A DNA stretch of 29,229 bases from a virus. The translations under genes and the position numbers were made by a program. The stretch covers positions 1 to 29,229 of IMG/VR virus record IMGVR_UViG_3300025070_000160; one strand, written 5' to 3'. Below the pieces are notes generated by a model that saw only the letters and a program-made list of their open reading frames with translations, did no database searches and was not told where the DNA came from. Positions 2 through 24,875 of the stretch are shown piece after piece. How positions within the stretch are numbered: position 1 is the stretch's first letter; every line of letters begins with the position of its first letter.

Positions 2-109
2 GACAAGCTCGTAAGAGAAACTATTATGAATACTGGTAAAAAAGTAGAAGAGAACTCAGATGCGTTAAAGAAAATAGACGATAAGTTATTTGAAATAATT
101 AGTAAATGA
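2..109 (+). CDS. C-terminal part of a small gene that wraps round the window ends
   Basis: Open from the first in-frame base to TGA at 107-109, giving 35 residues that end in a charged, probably helical tail (SDALKKIDDKLFEIISK). No start codon lies at the window edge. The reading frame at the far end (29162-29229) runs off with two spare bases, and joining those to base 1 gives AAA followed by this frame. The joined protein is 58 aa, acidic and basic in alternation, with no Cys and no membrane segment, and looks like one amphipathic helix or coiled coil. Its stop overlaps the next start (ATGA), so it is probably the first gene of the lysis-type operon. The function is not recognised. Confidence 0.75.
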   Translation, partial: DKLVRETIMNTGKKVEENSDALKKIDDKLFEIISK

Positions 110-447
110 AAAAATTAATATTATGTGTGATATGTGTATTGGTTGCGGGCTTTGTATATAGTCAAGACGTAACAGTTCTGCAAATAAATGCAGAATGGAA
201 TAAAAAGAATAATTACGATTTAAGTGATATTACAGGTGCTACTGTAAAGTTTAGTTACTTAAAAGACCAACCTAAAGATATTCAAAATAAAATTATGGCT
301 GTACCTGTAATTGTTATTATGGATAAATCAGGTAGGGTTAGAATGCAATATGTAGCAGATATATCTTTGCAAATTAAAGCTACTAGATTAGAAATACAGA
401 ATACTATAAATAGAATTAATAGACCTAGAAGGGCAAGTACTAACTAA
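106..447 (+). CDS. exported thioredoxin-fold-like small protein
   Basis: The 113-aa product begins with a clear signal peptide: MKK, then a hydrophobic run to about residue 17, then VYSQ, so cleavage near residue 20 is likely. The rest has a thioredoxin-like rhythm: a strand with a Trp (INAEW, residues 27-31), a strand near 45-50, then a cis-Pro-like VPV (66-68) leading into a strand and a turn (VIVIMDKSGRV). The CxxC redox pair is missing, so disulphide chemistry is unlikely. It lies directly ahead of the endolysin gene, overlapping by one base (TAATG), and could act in the periplasm during lysis or in superinfection control. The fold is inferred from pattern only and the role is unknown. 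Confidence 0.7.
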   Translation: MKKLILCVICVLVAGFVYSQDVTVLQINAEWNKKNNYDLSDITGATVKFSYLKDQPKDIQNKIMAVPVIVIMDKSGRVRMQYVADISLQIKATRLEIQNTINRINRPRRASTN

Positions 448-3453: not shown

Positions 3454-4368
3454 ATGCTAATAAACTTTGACCAACAGATTGATAAACTACAACAAATCAG
3501 GTCAGGGAAGATAATAGAAGGTTTAGCATTAGGATTTCCAGAAATAGACGAATACTTTAGATTTAAACAAGGTAACTTTTTAGTATGCTTAGGTCACGCT
3601 AATGTAGGTAAGACTACTGTGATCTTATATATGATGTTATTATATTCTATAAAGCATAATATTAGATGGCTTGTATTTTCTAGTGAGAATGAAGCACATA
3701 GTATTATTAGAAAACTAATAGAATTCCTGGCAGCAAAACCTATAAACAAAATACCTGAAGAAGAATTTGAGAAGCACAAGAGCTTTGTGTTTAATCAGTT
3801 TAAAATAATAGATTCTAATGAGCTTCATACTTATAAGACCTTATTAGAATTAGCTACAAGTATTAAAAAGGCTTGGAACTATCACGGATTTCTTATAGAC
3901 CCTTACAACTCTTTAATGAAAGATAGAGAGATGCTAAAAGGTATTAACTCTCACGATTATGACTATGAAGCAACATCTGAAATAAGATTATTCTGCAAGA
4001 CTCATAATGTATCAGTATGGTTAAATACTCACGCAGCTACAGAATCATTAAGAAAGAAACATTCTAATTCTGATGAGTATGCAGGACATCCTATTCCTCC
4101 TATGGCAAGTGATGTAGAAGGTGGAGGTAAGTTTGTTAATAGAAGTGATGAGTTTCTAGTAATTCATAGATATACTCAACACCCTACAGATTGGATGTAT
4201 AACCATATACACGTTAGAAAAGTAAAAGACATTGATACAGGAGGAAGACCTACTCCATTGACAGAACCTATCAAACTTAAATCAATACTTAACAATGTAG
4301 GTTTCCAAATAAATGGTAATAATATTATAACACCAACTTTAACAGAACAAATAAACTTACCATTTTGA
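3454..4368 (+). CDS. DnaB-type replicative helicase core (RecA-fold ATPase)
   Basis: 304 aa. Walker A is GHANVGKTT (residues 47-55), the expected catalytic acid lies in FSSENE (75-80), Walker B is HGFLIDP (144-150, D149), and an LNTHAATE stretch (about 190-197) corresponds to the sensor-like strand. LALGFPEIDEYFRFKQGNFLVCLG is the usual lead-in of DnaB-family C-terminal domains. The N-terminal primase-interaction domain of full-length DnaB (about 450 aa) is absent, so this is a core-only helicase as in several small phages. It should unwind the fork or load with the host machinery. It overlaps the sigma-like gene by 4 nt. Confidence 0.82.
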   Translation: MLINFDQQIDKLQQIRSGKIIEGLALGFPEIDEYFRFKQGNFLVCLGHANVGKTTVILYMMLLYSIKHNIRWLVFSSENEAHSIIRKLIEFLAAKPINKIPEEEFEKHKSFVFNQFKIIDSNELHTYKTLLELATSIKKAWNYHGFLIDPYNSLMKDREMLKGINSHDYDYEATSEIRLFCKTHNVSVWLNTHAATESLRKKHSNSDEYAGHPIPPMASDVEGGGKFVNRSDEFLVIHRYTQHPTDWMYNHIHVRKVKDIDTGGRPTPLTEPIKLKSILNNVGFQINGNNIITPTLTEQINLPF

Positions 4369-4844
4369 AAACACCTGTAGAATTAGCATATGAAAAACAT
4401 AACCAATGGGTAGAGATAGTACAAACCTTTGGTGGTTTAAATAAAGAGGAGTGTGAAGATTTGGTACAAACTATGTATATTCTGCTAATAAAGAATACAC
4501 AAAAAGGAATAGACTATCTATATAAAGATGAGATAAACTATTACTATGTTTTTAAAATACTTAGAGGGTTGTATGTAGATTTGATTAGAAAGAAAAGTAA
4601 AGTAAAACTAATCAGCTTAGAAAACATAGAACCTGTTACAGAAATAGATCACAACAATTATGATGAGGTTTATAACAAGCTCCAGGATATTTTAAAAGAT
4701 ATGTACTGGTACGATAAAAAAGTATTTGAAATTATAGAAGATGGTACTAACATAAGTGAACTATCAAGAAAAAGTAAAATAAGTTATTACAGCTTATACA
4801 ATACTTATAAGAAAGTTAAACAGAAACTAAAAGAAAATTTATGA
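4365..4844 (+). CDS. phage sigma-70-like factor (candidate late-promoter reader)
   Basis: 159 aa. Residues 25-80 fit sigma region 2: GLNKEECEDLVQTMYILLIKN is the acidic helix, and YYYVFKILRGLYVDLIRKKSK resembles the -10-recognition helix ending in Arg/Lys. Residues 112-155 fit region 4: KKVFEIIEDGTNISELSRKS, then a second helix ending YNTYKKVKQKLKE, a helix-turn-helix. The start is TTG at 4365, overlapping the helicase stop (TTGA); no in-frame ATG occurs until deep in region 2, so TTG is well supported and implies termination-reinitiation. Placement in the early block fits a middle or late transcription switch. It could be a non-sigma HTH regulator, but the two-domain layout argues for sigma. 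Confidence 0.72.
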   Translation: MKTPVELAYEKHNQWVEIVQTFGGLNKEECEDLVQTMYILLIKNTQKGIDYLYKDEINYYYVFKILRGLYVDLIRKKSKVKLISLENIEPVTEIDHNNYDEVYNKLQDILKDMYWYDKKVFEIIEDGTNISELSRKSKISYYSLYNTYKKVKQKLKENL

Positions 4845-6030: not shown

Positions 6031-6062
6031 TTTTGTTAATAACTTAGAAAGAGTTATATTAG
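6031..6062 (+). promoter_or_regulatory. host-type promoter before 6090
   Basis: TTTTG (6031-6035) is followed after 19 nt by TATATTAG (6055-6062), one mismatch from the Bacteroidetes -7 element TAnnTTTG. The predicted start near 6069 gives a leader of about 20 nt. A related element at 10270 shares TTGTTAATAA and ATTAGC. Confidence 0.6.
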
Positions 6063-7789: not shown

Positions 7790-7911
7790 AAGAATTAATA
7801 CAAGACATAGACATCATAATAGATGCTATAGATATGGGAGATAATGAAGATGCCATTAAAATGCTCCAGGAGATACAAAGAGAATTAAAAATTAAATTAT
7901 TATTATTATGA
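7786..7911 (+). CDS. small acidic helical protein, 41 aa
   Basis: Overlaps the exonuclease stop and the next start (ATGA at both ends). The product is a helix-turn-helix-like acidic peptide: MKELIQDIDIIIDAIDMGDN followed by EDAIKMLQEIQRELK, ending in five leucine or isoleucine codons, a repeat of tta. The tight double coupling and regular amphipathic pattern support it. The role is unknown; it may modulate one of its neighbours. Confidence 0.62.
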   Translation: MKELIQDIDIIIDAIDMGDNEDAIKMLQEIQRELKIKLLLL

Positions 7912-8330
7912 AAAAGAGAGCTTTAGATATAGCAAGACAAGTAAGTAACCTTGCAGAGTTAAATCCATTTGACAATACAAGACAAAGAGAATATGTAGAG
8001 GTAAGAGCTTTGATCTGCTTAATACTAAACAAGTATCTAGGAGTAGGATTAACAAGAATAGCAAACTTCTTCAAGGAGAATGGAAAGAATATGCATCACG
8101 CAAATGTATTGCACTTAGTAAGGAGTTTTGATACTTACAAGTTCTACAATAAAAACCTTGACAAGTGGTTAGACATAGTTATCAATGATATTGATGATGT
8201 GGGAAATGAAAACAAAAGAACACTTATAAGACATCGTATTAAATATCTTACTAATAAAGACATAGATGAATTAGCTCTTTACACAGAGGATATGTATAAT
8301 AAAGTTTTACAAAAAGAAGAAAGTCACTAA
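7908..8330 (+). CDS. DnaA C-terminal-domain-like replication protein
   Basis: 140 aa. Residues 20-80 fit the DnaA DNA-binding domain: REYVEVRALICLILNKYLG (first helix with the conserved Arg), then GLTRIANFFKENGKNMHHANVLHLVRSF, matching the 'I-x-x-x-F, then H-x-x-V-L-H' recognition element of DnaA (classic DHTTVLHA). No AAA+ domain is present, so it is DNA-binding only and may mark the phage origin for host DnaA/DnaB or for the phage helicase core. It is the last gene before the first CGATATAT promoter, so it ends the early block. Confidence 0.68.
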   Translation: MKKRALDIARQVSNLAELNPFDNTRQREYVEVRALICLILNKYLGVGLTRIANFFKENGKNMHHANVLHLVRSFDTYKFYNKNLDKWLDIVINDIDDVGNENKRTLIRHRIKYLTNKDIDELALYTEDMYNKVLQKEESH

Positions 8331-8341
8331 AATTTAATTTA

Positions 8342-8361
8342 TTTTTCGATATATAGATATA
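8342..8361 (+). promoter_or_regulatory. CGATATAT-type promoter ahead of the terminase genes
   Basis: TTTTTCGATATATAGATATA, with the C at 8347. The same core as the four copies that touch an ATG, but here the downstream position reads ATA instead of ATG, and the gene starts 48 nt after the C. If transcription starts 12 nt after the C, the leader is about 36 nt. The leader contains aattaattaatt and no other gene. Confidence 0.6.
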
Positions 8362-8394: not shown

Positions 8395-8643
8395 ATGGAT
8401 GGTAGAAAAAACAATGGTGGACATTCAACAAAAGGTAGAGCAGGTAGAAAACCTAAGCAAGAGGAAGTACAACTAATAGAGAAACTTACTCCCTTAGAAC
8501 CTTTAGCATTTGAAGCTCTAAAAGATGGCTTAGAGAAAAAGGACTTTAAGTTTGTTCAGCTTTACTATAATTACTTTGCAGGTAAACCAAAAGAAACAAA
8601 GGATATAACTATAAACGAAGATGTACCTTTATTCATTGATTAA
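8395..8643 (+). CDS. terS: terminase small subunit (short form)
   Basis: 82 aa. The product starts with a Gly/Lys-rich segment (NNGGHSTKGRAGRKPKQEE) whose GR-x-G-R-K-P element is the AT-hook-like start common to small terminase subunits. KLTPLEPLAFEALKDGLEK and FVQLYYNYFAGKPKE then form the helical core, and an acidic tail follows. It is shorter than typical (120-180 aa), but the immediately following gene is the large subunit with TAATG overlap. It should recognise phage DNA and recruit the large subunit. Confidence 0.8.
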   Translation: MDGRKNNGGHSTKGRAGRKPKQEEVQLIEKLTPLEPLAFEALKDGLEKKDFKFVQLYYNYFAGKPKETKDITINEDVPLFID

Positions 8644-9812
8644 TGTTTACAAAAACAGAAGCAGTAATAAAACTTAGAGAATTAGGTAGTAGAATAAGAA
8701 TAGTAAGAGGAGGTTCTTCTGCAGGTAAGACTGTAGCTATTCTAATGATACTTATTGACTATGCTATTAAAAACAATAACAAAGAAATTAGTGTAGTAGC
8801 AGAATCTGTCCCACACTTGCGTAGAGGAGCTTTAAAGGACTTTCTTAATATACTTAAACAAACCAATAGGTATGATGAGAGAAAGTTCAACAAGTCAACT
8901 CTAAAGTACCAATTCAGCACAGGTTCTTATATAGAGTTTTTCTCCACAGATCAACCTGACAAATTAAGAGGAGCAAGAAGAACAGACTTGTTTATTAATG
9001 AGTGTAATAACATTCCTAGCTTTGAGGTGTATCAACAACTTGCAGTAAGAACATCAGGAACGGTGTGGTTAGATTACAATCCAAGTAACATCTTCTGGGT
9101 AGATAAAGAACTAATAGGACAAGAAGATACTGACTTCCTAACATTAACATATAAAGACAATGACAGCTTACCATCTTCAATAGTAAAAGAAATAGAGAAA
9201 GCTAAAGTAAAAGCTAAGACATCTACTTACTGGGCTAATTGGTGGAAAGTATATGGACTAGGAGAGATAGGTAGCTTAGAGGGAGTATGTATTCCTGATT
9301 GGAAGTACATTGATAGTATTCCTTATGAAGCTAGGTTATTATGTGGAGGATTAGATTTTGGATATAGCATAGACCCTAGTACGATTATATTATTATACAA
9401 ATGGAACAATGCTTACATTTATGATGAGATACTATATCAAAAAGGAATGCTTAATAGAGACATAAGTAGATTTCTAAAAGACAATAGTATAACTACTCAT
9501 CTATGGGCAGACTCAGCAGAACCTAAGAGTATTAGTGAGATCAGAGCTTATGGTCATAAAATATCAGGAGTAACTAAAGGGAGAGATTCAGTAGTCTATG
9601 GTATTAACCTAATAAATCAAAATGAAATCTATGTAACCTCCAGGTCTAAGAATCTAATCAAAGAACTACAAGGATATATATGGGCAAAGGATAAAGAAGG
9701 TAATAACATACAGAAACCTACAGGAACTCATCCTGACTGTATAGATGCAGCTCGATATTGTTTAATGATGCAGTTAGAGAATCCTAATAGAGGTAGATAT
9801 ACTATTCAGTAG
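8643..9812 (+). CDS. terL: terminase large subunit (ATPase-nuclease packaging motor)
   Basis: 389 aa. Walker A is GGSSAGKT (residues 23-30). The Walker B region is LFINECNN, with the catalytic Glu. LDYNPSN is the coupling motif. The C-terminal RNase H-like nuclease has LDFGYSIDP (first Asp), WADSAEPKS (second Asp) and HPDCIDAARY (third Asp). The lead-in RIRIVRGGSSAGKT is typical of phages that begin directly with the ATPase. The length is compact (usual 420-550 aa), but all motor and nuclease residues are present. It drives DNA translocation into the prohead and cuts concatemers. The start overlaps the small subunit stop by one base. Confidence 0.93.
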   Translation: MFTKTEAVIKLRELGSRIRIVRGGSSAGKTVAILMILIDYAIKNNNKEISVVAESVPHLRRGALKDFLNILKQTNRYDERKFNKSTLKYQFSTGSYIEFFSTDQPDKLRGARRTDLFINECNNIPSFEVYQQLAVRTSGTVWLDYNPSNIFWVDKELIGQEDTDFLTLTYKDNDSLPSSIVKEIEKAKVKAKTSTYWANWWKVYGLGEIGSLEGVCIPDWKYIDSIPYEARLLCGGLDFGYSIDPSTIILLYKWNNAYIYDEILYQKGMLNRDISRFLKDNSITTHLWADSAEPKSISEIRAYGHKISGVTKGRDSVVYGINLINQNEIYVTSRSKNLIKELQGYIWAKDKEGNNIQKPTGTHPDCIDAARYCLMMQLENPNRGRYTIQ

Positions 9813-10269: not shown

Positions 10270-10302
10270 TTGTTAATAATATAAATAATTGTTGTAGATT
10301 AG
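10270..10302 (+). promoter_or_regulatory. promoter-like element between tRNA and 10307
   Basis: TTGTTAATAA (10270-10279), with TAGATTAG at 10295-10302 (spacer 22). It resembles the promoter at 6031 in both parts. The second box ends only 4 nt before the ATG, so a transcript from it would have almost no leader. Confidence 0.45.
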
Positions 10303-11057: not shown

Positions 11058-11089
11058 TAATTAAGTAAAGGTTGTTTTGTTTGGAAAGG

Positions 11090-11117
11090 GGGTAGCAGAA
11101 ATGTTACCCTTTTTTTT
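11090..11117 (+). terminator. Rho-independent terminator after the tRNA block
   Basis: GGGTAGC (11090-11096) pairs with GTTACCC (11103-11109) through one G:T, loop AGAAAT, followed by eight T. It separates the accessory block from the tail module; the CGATATAT promoter begins 31 nt after the T run. Confidence 0.9.
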
Positions 11118-11147
11118 GTGTATATGTCAAAAATGCTTCTAAAATTT

Positions 11148-11159
11148 CGATATATATAT
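11148..11159 (+). promoter_or_regulatory. CGATATAT-type promoter of the tail module
   Basis: CGATATATATAT directly before ATG 11160, preceded by AAATTT. One of four copies with exactly 12 nt from C to A of ATG. An AT-rich box ending about 4 nt before the start codon predicts RNA beginning at or within a few bases of the ATG. Confidence 0.65.
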
Positions 11160-11810
11160 ATGAAAGTAGAAATAAACGTGCCTAATGATTTAAAAGAAAT
11201 CAAGCTGCACCAATATCAGAAGTTCCTAAAGCTCCAAGAAAAGAGTGTAGATGAAAAGTTCTTAGCTTCTAAGATGATAGAAGTCTTCTGTGGTTTAAAG
11301 CTAACAGATGCTCTTAAAATGAAAGTAGCAGATGTCTATGCTATTACAGGAATACTTGGAGATATGTTCAATCAGAAACCTAAGCTAGTAAAGAAGTTCA
11401 AAATGAATGGGGTAGAATATGGATTCATACCAGACTTAGATCAGATGAGTTTAGGAGAATACATTGACCTGGACACTTACTTAGGGGATTGGGAAAATAT
11501 CCATAGAGCTATGAATGTTCTATATAGACCTATCAAACATAAGTATTCAGAAAAATACAATATAGAGGAGTATAACATAGACCATCCAGAGAAGATGCAA
11601 AATATGCCAATGGATGCAGTATTGAGTTCTGTGCTTTTTTTTTATCATTTAGGAATCGACTTGTCGAAAGCTATGATGAATTATTTGGAGGACAAACAGG
11701 AAACGAATTTAGTGCAATATCTCAATTCGGAACTAAATGGGGATGGTATCAATCAATTTACGGACTCGCTCAGGGAGATATTAGACGATTTGAAGATATC
11801 ACTAAGTTAA
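11160..11810 (+). CDS. tail assembly chaperone, zero-frame (G-like) product
   Basis: 216 aa from ATG 11160. ATG or GTG codons upstream in frame would lie inside or before the promoter, so they are rejected. The product begins MKVEINVPNDLKEIKLHQYQ, has a helical body (SKMIEVFCGLKLTDALKM, then VADVYAITGILGDMF), a beta-hairpin (FKMNGVEYGFIPDLDQM), and ends FTDSLREILDDLKISLS. It is the first gene of the tail module and precedes tail completion and tape-measure genes, as expected for a chaperone that coats the tape measure. A second frame overlaps its last 55 codons and can only be reached by a -1 shift. Confidence 0.72.
   Translation: MKVEINVPNDLKEIKLHQYQKFLKLQEKSVDEKFLASKMIEVFCGLKLTDALKMKVADVYAITGILGDMFNQKPKLVKKFKMNGVEYGFIPDLDQMSLGEYIDLDTYLGDWENIHRAMNVLYRPIKHKYSEKYNIEEYNIDHPEKMQNMPMDAVLSSVLFFYHLGIDLSKAMMNYLEDKQETNLVQYLNSELNGDGINQFTDSLREILDDLKISLS
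11636..11642 (+). promoter_or_regulatory. slippery heptamer for -1 frameshift (T7 within a T9 run)
   Basis: The run C-T9-A at 11634-11644 contains the zero-frame codons TTT TTT preceded by T, a perfect X-XXY-YYZ heptamer. A -1 slip puts ribosomes in the frame coding the conserved-looking GT-like segment. RNA polymerase slippage on the nine T is an alternative route. No obvious strong downstream stem was seen by eye. Confidence 0.7.
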
Positions 11811-18190: not shown

Positions 18191-18213
18191 AATACAAAAT
18201 ATTAATTTAAAAA

Positions 18214-18225
18214 CGATATATAAAT
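18214..18225 (+). promoter_or_regulatory. CGATATAT-type promoter of the capsid module
   Basis: CGATATATAAAT directly before ATG 18226; C-to-ATG spacing 12. The only full-consensus copy that also contains TATAAATA, which recalls T4 late promoters (no upstream box). Confidence 0.65.
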
Positions 18226-19416
18226 ATGAAAATAGTAGAACTTATTTTAGATGAAAATGAGGAGCTAAATGGAATTGAAGCAATAAGTATTGTAGAGAAT
18301 CCTGCAATAGAAGAAGACTTTGTTGCTTTAAAAAGTGATGAAATAAAACTAGCAGAGGTTAGCGAAGAAAAAAGAATCTTAATGGGAGCTTTATTAATCC
18401 CTAACAAACCTATATACAGAAGGAGTGGAGAGGATGAATATTATATATACTTCTCCAAAGATACGGTTTTAAAAGCATCCCAAATGTATTTAATGAAAGG
18501 CAACCAAAACAATTCAACTTTAGAGCATCAATATTCTCTAAATGGTTTGTCTTTAGTAGAAAGTTGGATAGTAGAAGATACTGTTCACGATAAATCCAGG
18601 AAGTATGATATGGAAGTTCCTGTAGGGACTTGGATGGGTACTGTTAAAGTAAACAATGAAGATGTTTGGAATGATTATGTAAAAACAGGTAAGGTTAAAG
18701 GATTTTCTATAGAAGGCTACTTTGTAGATAAAATGGAAAGACCTAAAGATGCTACTATAAACGACTTAGCTCAAATAGAGGAAGAAGAAGCTAAAGAATT
18801 GTTATCTACTATTAGGGGTATTATAAAAGGAGACAAAAGAACTAAAACTGGAAAGAAGATGGTAATGGAGTCTTATACAGACTATCCTGATGCAGTTAAG
18901 AATAATGCTAAAAAAGGCTTAGAACTCAATAAGAAAGTAAACAACAAATGTGCAACACAAGTTGGTAAGATCAGAGCAACACAACTTGCACAAGGAAAAC
19001 CAATAAGCAAAGAAACTATAAAGCGTATGTATTCTTATTTGTCAAGAGCAGAGGAATACTTTGAACCAAGTGATAATACTAAATGTGGGACTATAAGTTT
19101 CTACTTGTGGGGAGGACTAGCAGCAAAGAGATGGAGTGAGTCTAAATTAAAAGAATTAGAATTAGCTTCTATGAAAATAAATGAGGACTATGCTATAATA
19201 GATGATAGACTTGCATACTCTACAAAAGAGAAAGCTATAGAAGTATCTAAGGACATAGGGTGTAACTCTTACCACGAACACGAATACGAGGGTAAAGTAT
19301 GGTTTATGCCTTGTGAACAACACGAGCTTAAAAAACCTTGTCAAGCAGGATATGAGCAATATGGAATGAAAAGAAAGAATGGAAGATTAGTACCTAACTG
19401 TATACCAATCAAATAA
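18226..19416 (+). CDS. XkdF-like prohead protease with C-terminal extensions
   Basis: 396 aa. Residues 48-170 are the XkdF-type serine protease: RILMGALLIPNKPIYRRSGE, STLEHQYS with H101, ESWIVEDTVHDKSRKY, PVGTWMGTVKVNNEDVW, and GFSIEGYF with S161; H and S are the expected catalytic pair. Two extensions follow. Residues about 205-305 (ESYTDYPDAVKNNAKKGLEL, then RMYSYLSRAEEYFE) form an independent helical domain. The last 85 residues contain conserved Cys and His and end CQAGYEQYGMKRKNGRLVPN-CIPIK. It should mature the prohead during assembly. ALKSDEIKLAEV near residue 34 recurs in two later genes. Confidence 0.82.
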   Translation: MKIVELILDENEELNGIEAISIVENPAIEEDFVALKSDEIKLAEVSEEKRILMGALLIPNKPIYRRSGEDEYYIYFSKDTVLKASQMYLMKGNQNNSTLEHQYSLNGLSLVESWIVEDTVHDKSRKYDMEVPVGTWMGTVKVNNEDVWNDYVKTGKVKGFSIEGYFVDKMERPKDATINDLAQIEEEEAKELLSTIRGIIKGDKRTKTGKKMVMESYTDYPDAVKNNAKKGLELNKKVNNKCATQVGKIRATQLAQGKPISKETIKRMYSYLSRAEEYFEPSDNTKCGTISFYLWGGLAAKRWSESKLKELELASMKINEDYAIIDDRLAYSTKEKAIEVSKDIGCNSYHEHEYEGKVWFMPCEQHELKKPCQAGYEQYGMKRKNGRLVPNCIPIK

Positions 19417-20346: not shown

Positions 20347-20370
20347 AAATGCAAAATAATTAAATAAACT

Positions 20371-20382
20371 CGATATATTAAT
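20371..20382 (+). promoter_or_regulatory. CGATATAT-type promoter before the scaffold-capsid pair
   Basis: CGATATATTAAT directly before ATG 20383; C-to-ATG spacing 12. It gives the scaffold and major capsid genes their own start, besides any read-through from 18214. Confidence 0.65.
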
Positions 20383-21009
20383 ATGAAACCTATGGAAATG
20401 TTAAATCAAATCAAAAGCGTCTTGGGTGTAGAATTATCTACTGAAGAAATAGTAGAACTTGCTCAAGCTAAATTAGAAAATGGTACTGTTTTAGAAGCAG
20501 AATCATTCGAATCAGGAAAAGAAGTATTTATCTTAACTGATGATGACAAAGTAGCTTTACCTATTGGAGAGTACGAAATGGAAGATGGTAAAATCTTAGT
20601 AATAGCAGAAGATGGTATTATTTCAGAAATCAAAGAGGGTGGAGAAGAAGAAGTTGTGGAAGAAGAAGTAGTAGAGCAAGTAGAAGAAGAAGAACTAAAT
20701 GAAGAAGACAAATACGCAACTAAACAAGAACTTCAAGAAATCAAATCTATGGTAGAAGAAATCAAAGAATTGATGAAAGAAGGTAAGAAAGAAGAAATGC
20801 AAAAGGAAGAAGAATTAATGTCACAGAAAATGACAGAACTTGCTTGTCAAGAAGATGAAGTATTAAAAGAAGAATTATCTAAACCTGCTTCTGAACCTAT
20901 CAAGCATTCTCCTGAATCAAAGCAGGAATTAAATAAAGTTGTTTACTCTCAAAAGAGAAACTTAACAACAAAGGATATAGTATATAATAAAATAGCAAAT
21001 TTCAAATAA
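20383..21009 (+). CDS. probable capsid scaffold protein
   Basis: 208 aa. N-terminal MEMLNQIKSVLGVELSTEEI leads to a beta-rich acidic middle (FILTDDDKVALPIGEYEMED; KILVIAEDGIISEIKEGGEE), then an extended Glu stretch (about 85-105) and a coiled coil (KQELQEIKSMVEEIKELMKE), and ends in a basic tail (SQKRNLTTKDIVYNKIANFK). An acidic N-terminal two-thirds, a helical centre and a basic C-terminus directly before the capsid gene fit a scaffold that binds capsid subunits through its positive tail. No protease motif is present, so it is not a fused protease-scaffold. Confidence 0.72.
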   Translation: MKPMEMLNQIKSVLGVELSTEEIVELAQAKLENGTVLEAESFESGKEVFILTDDDKVALPIGEYEMEDGKILVIAEDGIISEIKEGGEEEVVEEEVVEQVEEEELNEEDKYATKQELQEIKSMVEEIKELMKEGKKEEMQKEEELMSQKMTELACQEDEVLKEELSKPASEPIKHSPESKQELNKVVYSQKRNLTTKDIVYNKIANFK

Positions 21010-21029: not shown

Positions 21030-21980
21030 ATGGCAACTACAGTTTCAATTACAAGTACATATGCAGGTGAGTTTTCAGGGAAGTATATTTCTGCTGCTCT
21101 ATTAAGTTCTCCTACATTAGAAAAAGGTAACATCGAAATTAAACCTAACGTAAAGTTTAAAGATGTAATCAAAAAAGTAGCAACAGATGCTAACGTAATA
21201 AAAGATGCTTCGTGTGACTTTTCTGACACGGCAACGGTCACGTTGACAGAACGTATTCTACAACCAGAGCAATTTCAAGTAAACCTTGAGCTTTGTAAGC
21301 AAGACTTTATCTCAGATTGGGAGGCGATCTCAATGGGATATAGTTCTTTAAATGACCAATTACCTCCAAAGTTTTCTGATTTCTTAATCGGACACGTTGC
21401 AGGATTGGTAGCAGAAAAGAATGAGCAAAACATTTGGGGTGGTGTTAATGGTAACGCAGGAGAGTTTGATGGAATCACAGTATTAGCAGCAGCAGACGGA
21501 GATGTTAACGATGCAGCTAATGGTGGTGAAACTGCTTTCAGTTCAACTAACATTATCAGTTTATTAGAAAACGTAGTAGATTCACTTCCATCAGCAGTAT
21601 ATGGAAAAGAAGATTTAAAAATCTACGTTCCAACTATCGCTTGGCAATCATACATCAGACAATTAGGAGGATATGCTGCTAATGGTGTTGGTGGTTCAGG
21701 TGTTGATAACAGAGGTGGTTTATGGTACAATCAAGGTAATGCACTTTCTTTCGATGGAATCGAAGTTGTATTAGCTCCAGGTATGCCATCTAATCACATC
21801 GTAGCAGGACAAAAATCTAACATTTACTTTGGTACAGGTCTTTTATCTGACCACAACGAAGTTAAGTTATTAGATATGGCTGACCTAGATGGTTCTCAGA
21901 ACGTAAGAGTAGTAATGAGATTTTCAGCAGGTGTACAATATGGAATAGGAAGTGACCTATCTTTATTGACATTAGCATAA
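21030..21980 (+). CDS. major capsid protein, HK97 fold
   Basis: 316 aa. ATTVSITSTYAGEFSGKYIS opens the protein, then LSSPTLEKGNIEIKPNVKFK and DTATVTLTERILQPEQFQVN, QDFISDWEAISMGYSSLNDQ, a spine helix (NIISLLENVVDSLPSAVYGK), VPTIAWQSYIRQLGG, FDGIEVVLAPGMPSNHIVAG and the closing RVVMRFSAGVQYGIGSDL give the E-loop, spine helix and A-domain order of HK97-type capsids. Codon use includes more C-ending codons (aac, atc) than neighbouring genes, as expected for the most highly expressed protein. It follows the scaffold gene and precedes a hairpin terminator. Confidence 0.9.
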   Translation: MATTVSITSTYAGEFSGKYISAALLSSPTLEKGNIEIKPNVKFKDVIKKVATDANVIKDASCDFSDTATVTLTERILQPEQFQVNLELCKQDFISDWEAISMGYSSLNDQLPPKFSDFLIGHVAGLVAEKNEQNIWGGVNGNAGEFDGITVLAAADGDVNDAANGGETAFSSTNIISLLENVVDSLPSAVYGKEDLKIYVPTIAWQSYIRQLGGYAANGVGGSGVDNRGGLWYNQGNALSFDGIEVVLAPGMPSNHIVAGQKSNIYFGTGLLSDHNEVKLLDMADLDGSQNVRVVMRFSAGVQYGIGSDLSLLTLA

Positions 21981-22614: not shown

Positions 22615-22642
22615 AAGGGGACTATATGTCCTCTTTTTTTTT
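22615..22642 (+). terminator. Rho-independent terminator after the tail tube gene
   Basis: GGGGAC (22617-22622) pairs with GTCCTC (22628-22633), one G:T, loop TATAT, then nine T, with extra A:T pairs at the base. The stem end lies 51 nt from the next ATG, the same as for the terminator at 11090. Confidence 0.88.
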
Positions 22643-22671
22643 GCATTTAACACAAAATATAGTTTTTTTTT

Positions 22672-22683
22672 CGATATATAAGT
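22672..22683 (+). promoter_or_regulatory. CGATATAT-type promoter of the portal module
   Basis: CGATATATAAGT directly before ATG 22684, preceded by nine T. C-to-ATG spacing 12. It restarts transcription right after the strong terminator at 22615-22642. Confidence 0.68.
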
Positions 22684-23064
22684 ATGAAGAAACTTACTAC
22701 AAGTGCATCATCTCAGACTATAAAGATTATACCAAGAAGTTATGTTACTTCTTCTACTACTTTAAAAGTAAGAGACGATTCATTAAATGAAGAATTTAGC
22801 TTTACAGTAACTCCATCTGTTGATGGTAATTATCTAAGTATTTCTAATGAATATACATCTTCAGGAAATTCAATATTAAAAGAGGGTAGAACTTATGACA
22901 TAGAGTTATTAGATACATCTTCTAATATAATATACAAAGACAAAGTATTTTGTACTGACCAAACTGTAGATCAATCAAGTAATGACTATTATTCAATCAA
23001 TGATGGTCAATATACATTTGATACTACAGCAGGTTCTCACGATAACGATTACATAATAATATGA
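22684..23064 (+). CDS. small beta-rich structural protein, 126 aa
   Basis: SSQTIKIIPRSYVTSSTTLK, NEEFSFTVTPSVDGNYLSIS, ILKEGRTYDIELLDTSSNII and YKDKVFCTDQTVDQSSNDYY alternate strands and turns in the way of small Ig-like or head-decoration and connector proteins. It is the first gene after the late promoter and overlaps the portal start by 4 nt. Its single Cys is in the VFCTDQT element. Decoration, head-completion or tail-associated roles are possible. Confidence 0.62.
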   Translation: MKKLTTSASSQTIKIIPRSYVTSSTTLKVRDDSLNEEFSFTVTPSVDGNYLSISNEYTSSGNSILKEGRTYDIELLDTSSNIIYKDKVFCTDQTVDQSSNDYYSINDGQYTFDTTAGSHDNDYIII

Positions 23065-24875
23065 ACGATTTAAGAATAGTAAATTTAAGCACTTACACGA
23101 GTCCTAAAATAAAAGAAGTTAGTAATAGAGATTGGATTTCTTATGGGGAGGACAACAACTACTTTCAATATCTAATAGACAGATATAATGGAAGTCCAAC
23201 TAACAATGCCATAATAAATGCTGTATCTTCTATGATATATGGTAAAGGATTAGATGCTACTAATTCCAATAAAAAACCAGATCAATATGCACAAATGATT
23301 TCATTATTTGATAATGATAGTGTAAGAAGATTAGCATACGACTTAAAATTAATGGGACAATGTGCTATACAGGTAATTTATTCTAAAGACAGAACTAAGA
23401 TTGCTCAGATAGAGCATATGCCTGTAGAAACACTTAGAGCAGAGAAGTGTAATGAGAAAGGAGATATTGAAGCATATTACTATTGGAAAGATTGGGAAAA
23501 GATTAGACCTTCTGACAAGCCTTTGAGAATACCTGCATTTGGTACAAGCAAAGAAGCTATAGAAATACTTTATGTAAAACCATACAGATCTGGATATTAT
23601 TATTATAGTCCTGTAGATTATCAAGGTGGTTTACAATATGCAGAGCTTGAAGAAGAAGTATCTAACTTTCACTTAAACAACATACTTAATGGTATGAGTC
23701 CTTCAATGTTAATTAACTTTAACAATGGTACTCCTAATGCAGAGGAAAGAAGACTTATAGAACAAAGAATATACAACAAATTTAGTGGGTCAAGTAATGC
23801 AGGTAAGTTCATATTAGCTTTTAATGATAATGCAGAGAGTGCTGCAAGTATAGAACCTGTTCAACTTAGTGATGCACATAATCAGTATCAATTTTTGTCT
23901 GAAGAATCTACTAAAAAGATAATGGTAGCTCATAGGGTCGTTTCTCCGATGCTTTTAGGTATTAAAGATAACTCAGGTCTAGGAAACAATGCAGATGAGC
24001 TTAAAACAGCCTCTACGCTAATGGATAATACTGTTATCAGACCTTTTCAACATCTTTTAATAGATGCCTTTAATCAAATCTTAGCTTATAATGGTATCTC
24101 ACTTAAATTATACTTTAAAACTTTACAACCTTTAGAATTTACAGAATTAGATAATGTAGAGGATGAGGAAACTAAAGAAGAAGAAACTGGTGTGAAGTTA
24201 TCAGAGCAAGAAATATATTTATCTAAAGAAGAAATAAATAAAAATTTACAAGAGTTTATATCATTAGGAGAAAATGAAAAAGATATATTGAATGATTATG
24301 ACTTAATAGATGAATTTGAAGTAGATTATGACCTTGAAGATGAGTTAGATAATAAAATAAAAGAGTTGAATGAAAAGACTGCATTAGTTTCTACTGGTCG
24401 TGCAAACAAAACAAAAAAGAGTGAGCAAGATGTTAAAAGTAAACAAGAAGAATATAAAGATGTTACTTTTTTAGTAAGATATGTTTACACTACAAGAACT
24501 CCTGCTTATAAAACAAGAAAAAATAAATCAAGAGAGTTTTGTTATCAAATGATGAAAGCTAAAAAGGTTTATAGAAAGGAAGATATAGTAGCTATGGGTA
24601 GTAAAGCTGTTAATCCTGATTTTGCAGGTGCAGGTAAAACAACCTATTCGATATGGCTTTATAAAGGAGGAGCAAGATGTCATCATAAATGGTTTAGAAA
24701 AATATATGCAAAAAAAGAAGGTGATAAAATGGGAGATCAAATAAGTACAACAAAAGCAAGGTCAAGAGGTGCAAAATTAAAACCTAATGCACAAAAAGTA
24801 CCTGTAGCTCCAGTAGATATGCCATATAAAGGATATACAGCAGCATATTGGAAAAAAATGGGATTTAAAAATTAA
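23061..24875 (+). CDS. portal protein with a C-terminal extra domain
   Basis: 604 aa. Residues about 1-370 are the portal: NRDWISYGEDNNYFQYLIDR, SPTNNAIINAVSSMIYGKGL, LKLMGQCAIQVIY, a stem region (NPEERR-like SPSMLINFNNGTPNAEERR), SAASIEPVQLSDAHNQYQFL and RVVSPMLLGIKDNSGLGNNA. The middle 370-460 is acidic. From about 464 a separate domain begins (FLVRYVYTTRTPAYKTRKNK; REFCYQMMKAKKVYRKEDIV; RCHHKWFRKIYAKKEG), Cys/His/Lys-rich, then a disordered basic tail. The portal is the dodecameric DNA gate. The extra domain, known to me from other marine phage structural proteins, is of unknown role. Confidence 0.84.
   Translation: MNDLRIVNLSTYTSPKIKEVSNRDWISYGEDNNYFQYLIDRYNGSPTNNAIINAVSSMIYGKGLDATNSNKKPDQYAQMISLFDNDSVRRLAYDLKLMGQCAIQVIYSKDRTKIAQIEHMPVETLRAEKCNEKGDIEAYYYWKDWEKIRPSDKPLRIPAFGTSKEAIEILYVKPYRSGYYYYSPVDYQGGLQYAELEEEVSNFHLNNILNGMSPSMLINFNNGTPNAEERRLIEQRIYNKFSGSSNAGKFILAFNDNAESAASIEPVQLSDAHNQYQFLSEESTKKIMVAHRVVSPMLLGIKDNSGLGNNADELKTASTLMDNTVIRPFQHLLIDAFNQILAYNGISLKLYFKTLQPLEFTELDNVEDEETKEEETGVKLSEQEIYLSKEEINKNLQEFISLGENEKDILNDYDLIDEFEVDYDLEDELDNKIKELNEKTALVSTGRANKTKKSEQDVKSKQEEYKDVTFLVRYVYTTRTPAYKTRKNKSREFCYQMMKAKKVYRKEDIVAMGSKAVNPDFAGAGKTTYSIWLYKGGARCHHKWFRKIYAKKEGDKMGDQISTTKARSRGAKLKPNAQKVPVAPVDMPYKGYTAAYWKKMGFKN

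Follow-up and report, generated by a model that had tools for sequence, protein, structure and literature searches.

An ECF-type sigma factor encoded in the early replication block of this phage very probably directs the core RNA polymerase of the host to a set of late promoters with the bipartite sequence AAAAT-N13-CGATATAT. The stretch of DNA analysed here (the window) is a virus record of 29,229 bases, a linear contig that is possibly incomplete. The computed support consists of the sigma fold, the bipartite element, the mutual co-occurrence of gene and promoter, and the coevolution of sigma region 2 with the -10 sequence; from these we infer the binding of the sigma to the host core, the exact start site and the early-then-late timing. 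In the proposed mechanism, the sigma would be made from the early replication block and would join the host core polymerase, after which its region 4 would read AAAAT (about -30 to -26) and its region 2 CGATATAT (about -12 to -5). The packaging and structural units would then be transcribed from about 12 nt past the C, a position that in four of the five units is the A of the start codon. Probably, bacterial transcription is redirected in this way to the start sites of particle-building genes.

The sigma gene is an open reading frame which begins with TTG in a four-base overlap with the TGA of the DnaB-like helicase gene, just as the initial annotation had it, and the TTG start is common to all 21 distinct CGATATAT-type relatives. 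Its neighbours code for a single-strand binding protein (2802), the helicase (3454) and nuclease-like proteins, and it is located 5′ of the terminase and structural genes. No anti-sigma gene, a common though not universal neighbour of ECF sigmas, was recognised beside it, where the next genes code for nuclease-like and small proteins, the short ones being partly covered by the searches. No other RNA polymerase or sigma gene was found among the scanned ORFs of this 29 kb linear, possibly incomplete record. Relatives of the sigma are common in viral contigs: one scan found 217, and another, for which a diverged member served as query, found 226.

By sequence, the similarity of the protein to sigma factors is low. 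Pfam Sigma70_r2 matches with E 0.03, which is below the cut-off, Sigma70_r4 gives no Pfam match in the window protein, and a profile search against PDB sequences returned weak matches to SigE only (E 0.03). The family phrog_1740, 'RNA polymerase sigma factor', is matched with E 0.0005-0.001, and among the relatives Sigma70_r2 reaches E < 0.01 in 5 of 19 (best 3e-5). A structure model (AlphaFold2), built from 19 diverse relatives, has a mean pLDDT of 85 and consists of two helical domains, which are connected by a loose linker of low confidence (residues 81-95). Foldseek placed ECF sigmas on top (SigE, SigL, AlgU, SigH). With a second structural aligner, residues 1-81 superpose on region 2 of RpoE (2.5 Å over 76 residues) and residues 95-159 on region 4 of SigL (1.9 Å over 65 residues), and all 50 structural matches listed are sigma factors. 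On these two-domain matches, the model identifies the product as an ECF-type sigma made up solely of region 2 and region 4, joined by a linker as is typical for this class (group 4). The gene had initially been annotated as sigma-70-like, with region-2-like and region-4-like parts. Its sigma identity is borne out by the model and its structural matches, in which both parts are clear (region 2 being weak by sequence), while the class has to be corrected to ECF.

The motif CGATATAT, which had been taken to be the promoter of the structural genes, occurs five times in the window (Table 1), always on the plus strand and always in the structural half, compared to an expectation of 0.54; none of 100 shuffles reaches five. 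At all five sites AAAAT is found exactly 13 nt further 5′. There is no further AAAAT-N13-CG pair on the plus strand of the window, and the full element did not occur in any of 400 simulated sequences. The motif is thus real but constitutes one half of the promoter, the complete element being AAAAT-N13-CGATATAT. A rigid spacing between -35 and -10 is an ECF trait, and it is seen here in all five copies. In four of these, the C is located exactly 12 nt 5′ of a late-gene ATG, while the fifth is positioned 48 nt 5′ of the first gene of the terminase unit. A G+C stem followed by a T run (approximately 11089-11117), which was read directly from the sequence, lies just 5′ of the 11148 promoter, and a stem resembling an intrinsic terminator (22615-22635) just 5′ of the 22672 promoter.

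Table 1. Predicted sigma gene, late promoters and late transcription units in the window.
Feature	Position	Strand	Remarks
Predicted ECF-type sigma factor gene, 159 aa	4365-4844	+	open ORF, relatives, structure model
Predicted layout of the sigma protein: region 2, residues ~1-81; flexible linker, ~81-95; region 4, ~95-159			structure model
-35-like AAAAT, terminase-unit promoter	8329-8333	+	
-10-like CGATATAT	8347-8354	+	predicted start ~8359, leader ~36 nt to ATG 8395
Packaging unit: small gene (8395-8643) and large terminase (8643-9812)	8395-9812	+	
-35-like AAAAT	11130-11134	+	
-10-like CGATATAT	11148-11155	+	12 nt 5′ of ATG 11160
First gene of late unit, 216 aa, phrog_32199 (function unknown)	11160-11810	+	
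-35-like AAAAT	18196-18200	+	
-10-like CGATATAT	18214-18221	+	12 nt 5′ of ATG 18226
Late gene, XkdF-like head protease (Peptidase_S78_2)	18226-19416	+	
-35-like AAAAT	20353-20357	+	
-10-like CGATATAT	20371-20378	+	12 nt 5′ of ATG 20383
Late gene 5′ of likely major capsid gene (21030-21980)	20383-21009	+	
-35-like AAAAT	22654-22658	+	
-10-like CGATATAT	22672-22679	+	12 nt 5′ of ATG 22684
Late unit: 126-aa gene and portal protein (23061-24875)	22684-24875	+	

Several other features of the window were annotated. The likely assignment of the major capsid gene is based on a match to phrog_1623 (E 1e-4) and on its position. At the left end, beside small membrane-type genes, there is a Peptidase M15 endolysin (447-929; Pfam E 3e-17, phrog_894), and the lysis block is apparently cut by the left border of the record. 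A scan for E. coli-type promoters was uninformative, with 80 found against 88 expected. Two intergenic stretches (6033-6062 and 10270-10302) resemble the housekeeping promoter of Bacteroidota (TTGTTAATAA, then TATATTAG / TAGATTAG) and are candidates for host-type early promoters; a comparable site occurs 5′ of an intergenic gene in one related record (L047). Directly 5′ of the first late promoter, a protein of 140 aa is encoded (7908-8330), which shows a weak match to the C-terminal helix-turn-helix of DnaA (E 0.002) and is possibly a replication initiator or regulator.

This DnaA-domain-like protein would be the candidate partner if the sigma were only half of a split late factor of the T4 type, for which a second phage protein is needed. 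T4 late transcription requires gp55, gp33 and the clamp (PMC2988020), and the position of the 7908 gene just before the first late promoter would suit such a role. However, the sigma has a region 4 of its own and the promoter a -35 element, which makes a gp33-like part unnecessary, and we consider a split factor highly improbable. We thus continue with a single ECF sigma that reads both halves of the element.

The link between sigma and promoter had originally been proposed from their co-occurrence, and we followed it in both directions. Viral contigs were scanned blindly for the pattern AAAAT-N13-CGATATAT-NNNTATG and for its CGTTATAT version. Each version was found in at least 120 stretches, while a control scan with a spacing of 16 (a shift by 3 nt) found 7, so that this spacing is nearly missing from the collection. 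Among the matches listed, the site precedes a relative of one of the same four window genes in 166 of 173 cases for CGATATAT and in 126 of 133 for CGTTATAT, and relatives of the 11160 gene head 88 of the 306 late units listed from the two blind scans. The sigma gene is present in 19 of 29 promoter-selected records of at least 20 kb, again among the matches listed. Of the ten records without it, four have chance sites in unrelated contigs, five end short of the place of the sigma, and one is uncertain, which leaves the gene present in 19 of 20 testable records. The absence of the sigma from seven records of 20-33 kb was considered as a possible refutation and rejected, as five of them end short, one (L172) is outside the group and one (G022) is uncertain.

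In the opposite direction, the sigma-bearing loci with 5 kb or more of downstream sequence numbered 54, most of them from the sigma scan and some from the promoter scans. The promoter was found in 53 of these, the exception being phage P12024S, which has its own version (see below). When the structural gene at 11160 was used as sole query, CG[A/T]TATAT was found directly 5′ in 67 of the 79 loci with upstream DNA (57 with T, 10 with A), and the sigma in 11 of the 13 loci with at least 8.5 kb upstream. Phages selected solely by the motif thus carry the gene where the contig reaches it, and those selected by the gene carry the motif, so that the initially claimed link is supported, and it is strengthened by the covariation described below. 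A search for the sigma in 84,980 genomes of bacteria and archaea returned one MAG contig (L350, CAJQLJ010000094.1) and no prophage hosts. This contig, binned as a Campylobacterales MAG, codes for a sigma relative (39%) and, because other window-like genes are present on it too, is probably a mis-binned phage contig.

The promoter type could be read for 124 sigma-bearing loci: 50 have CGTTATA, 25 have CGATATAT, and 49 have TATTATAT or CATTATAT. Mixed types within one genome do not occur in any of the 124. Judged from alignments, sigma region 2 and the -10 sequence change together. In 93 distinct sigmas, residue 68 is Gly in all 20 of the CGATATAT type, and Ser or Thr in 35 of 36 of the CGTTATAT type and in all 37 of the TATTATAT type. 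The exception (L247) has Asn67-Gly68 with CGTTATAT, and therefore Gly68 is insufficient for the CGATATAT type. Asp72 is found in all 56 CG-type sigmas and Arg75 in 54 of them, whereas neither occurs in any of the 37 TATTATAT-type sigmas, which have Gln or Lys at position 72 and Asn or Lys at position 75. Residue 74 (hydrophobic versus Lys), which separated the first two clades without exception, was also considered as a determinant but was dropped, since there are CGTTATAT sigmas with Cys74 and a CGATATAT sigma with His74.

The 49 TATTATAT loci (class C) contain 100 AAAA-N14-TATTATAT sites on the strand of the sigma gene and none on the opposite strand, while controls with shifted spacing gave 1 and 2 sites. 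There is no CG-type site on the sigma strand of these loci and one chance match on the opposite strand. In the sigma tree, the TATTATAT class forms one clade (100/100). The CGATATAT type requires only two gains on this tree, one of them in a phage (L378) that is otherwise placed among CGTTATAT phages, although the support for this placement is moderate (85/56). Nearly all of these loci retain AAAA at the -35 position, and with it the stretch SLYNT in the recognition helix of the sigma; the few loci with TAAA or CAAA are a subgroup with a spacing of 12 nt. In five loci (L360, L378, L380, L387, L396) the distance from the -35 element to the CG is 12 rather than 13 nt; their sigmas have a longer linker, and YKNVK replaces YKKVK near the end of region 4. 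In this subgroup, the spacing may covary with the sigma linker.

Most ECF sigmas from Mycobacterium tuberculosis (at least 8 of 10) prefer a C-G just 5′ of the -10 core. From the SigL structure, it has been suggested that this step may be read by the final helix of region 2 (residues 78-82 in SigL; PMC6372665). When aligned to SigE, Asp72 and Arg75 fall into this last helix. Their joint loss with the C-G is as that suggestion predicts and supports it without proving it; since the change to class C is one event on a long branch, it does not single out the decisive residues. In the tree of the 11160 protein, the gene of the window lineage seems to derive from a phage of the CGTTATAT type, its promoter being of the CGATATAT type, which suggests that the promoter follows the sigma; the branches are not strongly supported. 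We tentatively propose, at somewhat less than even confidence, a readable code in ECF region 2, in which residue 68 would help to set A or T at position -10 and Asp72 and Arg75 would read the C-G at -12/-11, with all late promoters having been rewired at once at least three times while leaderless messages were kept.

The same covariation bears on whether a host ECF sigma might read the late promoters, with the phage protein in some other role, such as that of an inactive decoy or of a factor directed against the host. In favour of this, seven ECF sigmas are known from Flavobacterium psychrophilum, and one class of promoters in this species contains a CGT box in its -10 region, similar to CGTTATAT (PMC9723704). 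However, a host factor would give no reason why the late promoters all switch to CGATATAT or TATTATAT exactly as region 2 of the phage protein changes, and TATTATAT lacks any CGT box. A host factor as the reader is thus very improbable, and we retain the phage sigma in this role.

In the numbering established for SigH, where the -10 element is GTT with a T at -9 (PMC6411747), CG[A/T]T corresponds to -12 to -9, which places +1 on the A of the ATG. Late messages from four of the five units are therefore predicted to be leaderless. Two related sites (L004:17543 and L005:11628) have two extra bases after CGATATAT (ATATATAT-ATG), for which a leader of 2 nt is predicted. It is scarcely credible that CGATATAT is a translation signal or some other element adjacent to the start codon: four of the five window sites end 4 nt from the ATG, at the position of a ribosome-binding site, and Bacteroidota lack Shine-Dalgarno sites (PMC6847099), but the terminase-unit copy, at 48 nt from the ATG, is unchanged in sequence and has its AAAAT at 13 nt as well, and a fixed partner 13 nt 5′, found at the starts of units and not of every gene, fits sigma regions 4 and 2 rather than a ribosome.

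Among cultured phages, P12024S and P12024L of Nonlabens are closest to the window phage (38% identity of the portal protein over 97%), and its host is therefore probably a marine member of the Flavobacteriia. P12024S was reached via the portal protein search; tblastn with the window protein and a CGTTATAT-type sigma against annotated phages gave chance matches only. Both phages (Inhavirus) code for a distant sigma homologue, gp33 (phmmer 2e-6), after the replication genes and before the terminase. In P12024S it is annotated as a hypothetical protein with Sigma-70 region 2, and it passes the Pfam cut-off for this region (25.2 versus 24 bits). Its promoters differ from those of the window, with CGTTAAT as -10 and AAAACAAA as -35: six CGTTAAT sites are located 11-12 nt 5′ of annotated late starts, and AAAACAAA ends about 14 nt upstream. 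Both elements thus differ where the sigma differs, whereas their distance to the ATG is kept. No reports on P12024S promoters were found in the papers searched. A further very diverged sigma (E 4e-12) is encoded on a 37 kb record (L341, also G026), where AAAAT-N13-CGTTATAT still occurs 5′ of a late gene; it is useful as an outgroup between the sigma family of the window and P12024S.

Descriptions of late transcription in phages of Bacteroidota are scarce; in the present case, a predicted regulator can be read from sequence together with its sites and their matched variants in hundreds of marine phages that are uncultured. Searches of the literature for late promoters of flavophages or sigmas of Bacteroidetes phages, with subscription journals mostly outside their coverage, gave nothing relevant. 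The matched sigma-promoter pairs form an unusually clear natural record of coevolution and are natural swap experiments on how ECF sigmas read the C-G before the -10 core. They would also supply small sigmas that each have their own promoters and for which cross-reaction is predicted to be absent. The predicted leaderless late messages bear on a phylum in which such messages are rare (5.5% in F. psychrophilum; PMC9723704).

With T4 gp55, the window sigma shares the role of a phage factor that would turn the host polymerase to late genes with an AT-rich -10. In T4, however, gp33 replaces region 4 and the sliding clamp is used, and the gp55 family has neither region 4 nor a -35 element, while the window has a region 4 in the model and AAAAT as its -35 element. 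The two-domain build and the rigid spacing of -35 and -10 are shared with bacterial ECF sigmas such as SigE, SigH and SigL from M. tuberculosis and sigma-E from E. coli (PMC6372665, PMC6411747). The bacterial -35 element is GGAAC, whereas that of the window is AAAAT and is 3-4 nt closer to the predicted start.

Closest in kind are the sigmas of phiEco32 (gp36) and of phage 7-11 (Kuravirus-type), which were not found by tblastn of the window protein against annotated phages. They are likewise phage ECF sigmas with a few conserved promoters 5′ of structural genes, a combination that is also found here, and binding of the phiEco32 protein to E. coli polymerase has been shown experimentally (PMC4281155, PMC7881722, PMC4331800). 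Their motif (tAATGTATAtA / TGTGATGTTATA) is, as described, a -10-type element alone (PMC4281155, PMC7881722, PMC4331800). Its core, TGATGT / AATGTATA, does not occur in the promoters described here, which have CGATATAT, CGTTATAT, TATTATAT or CGTTAAT with a -35 partner. Unlike those sites, the window promoters are bipartite with a fixed spacing of 13 nt, abut the ATG, and exist in at least three versions matched to their sigmas. Phage ECF sigmas for late genes were thus already known from phiEco32 and 7-11, whereas the bipartite element abutting the ATG, the setting in marine Bacteroidota phages and the matched natural variants are, as far as the papers searched go, new.
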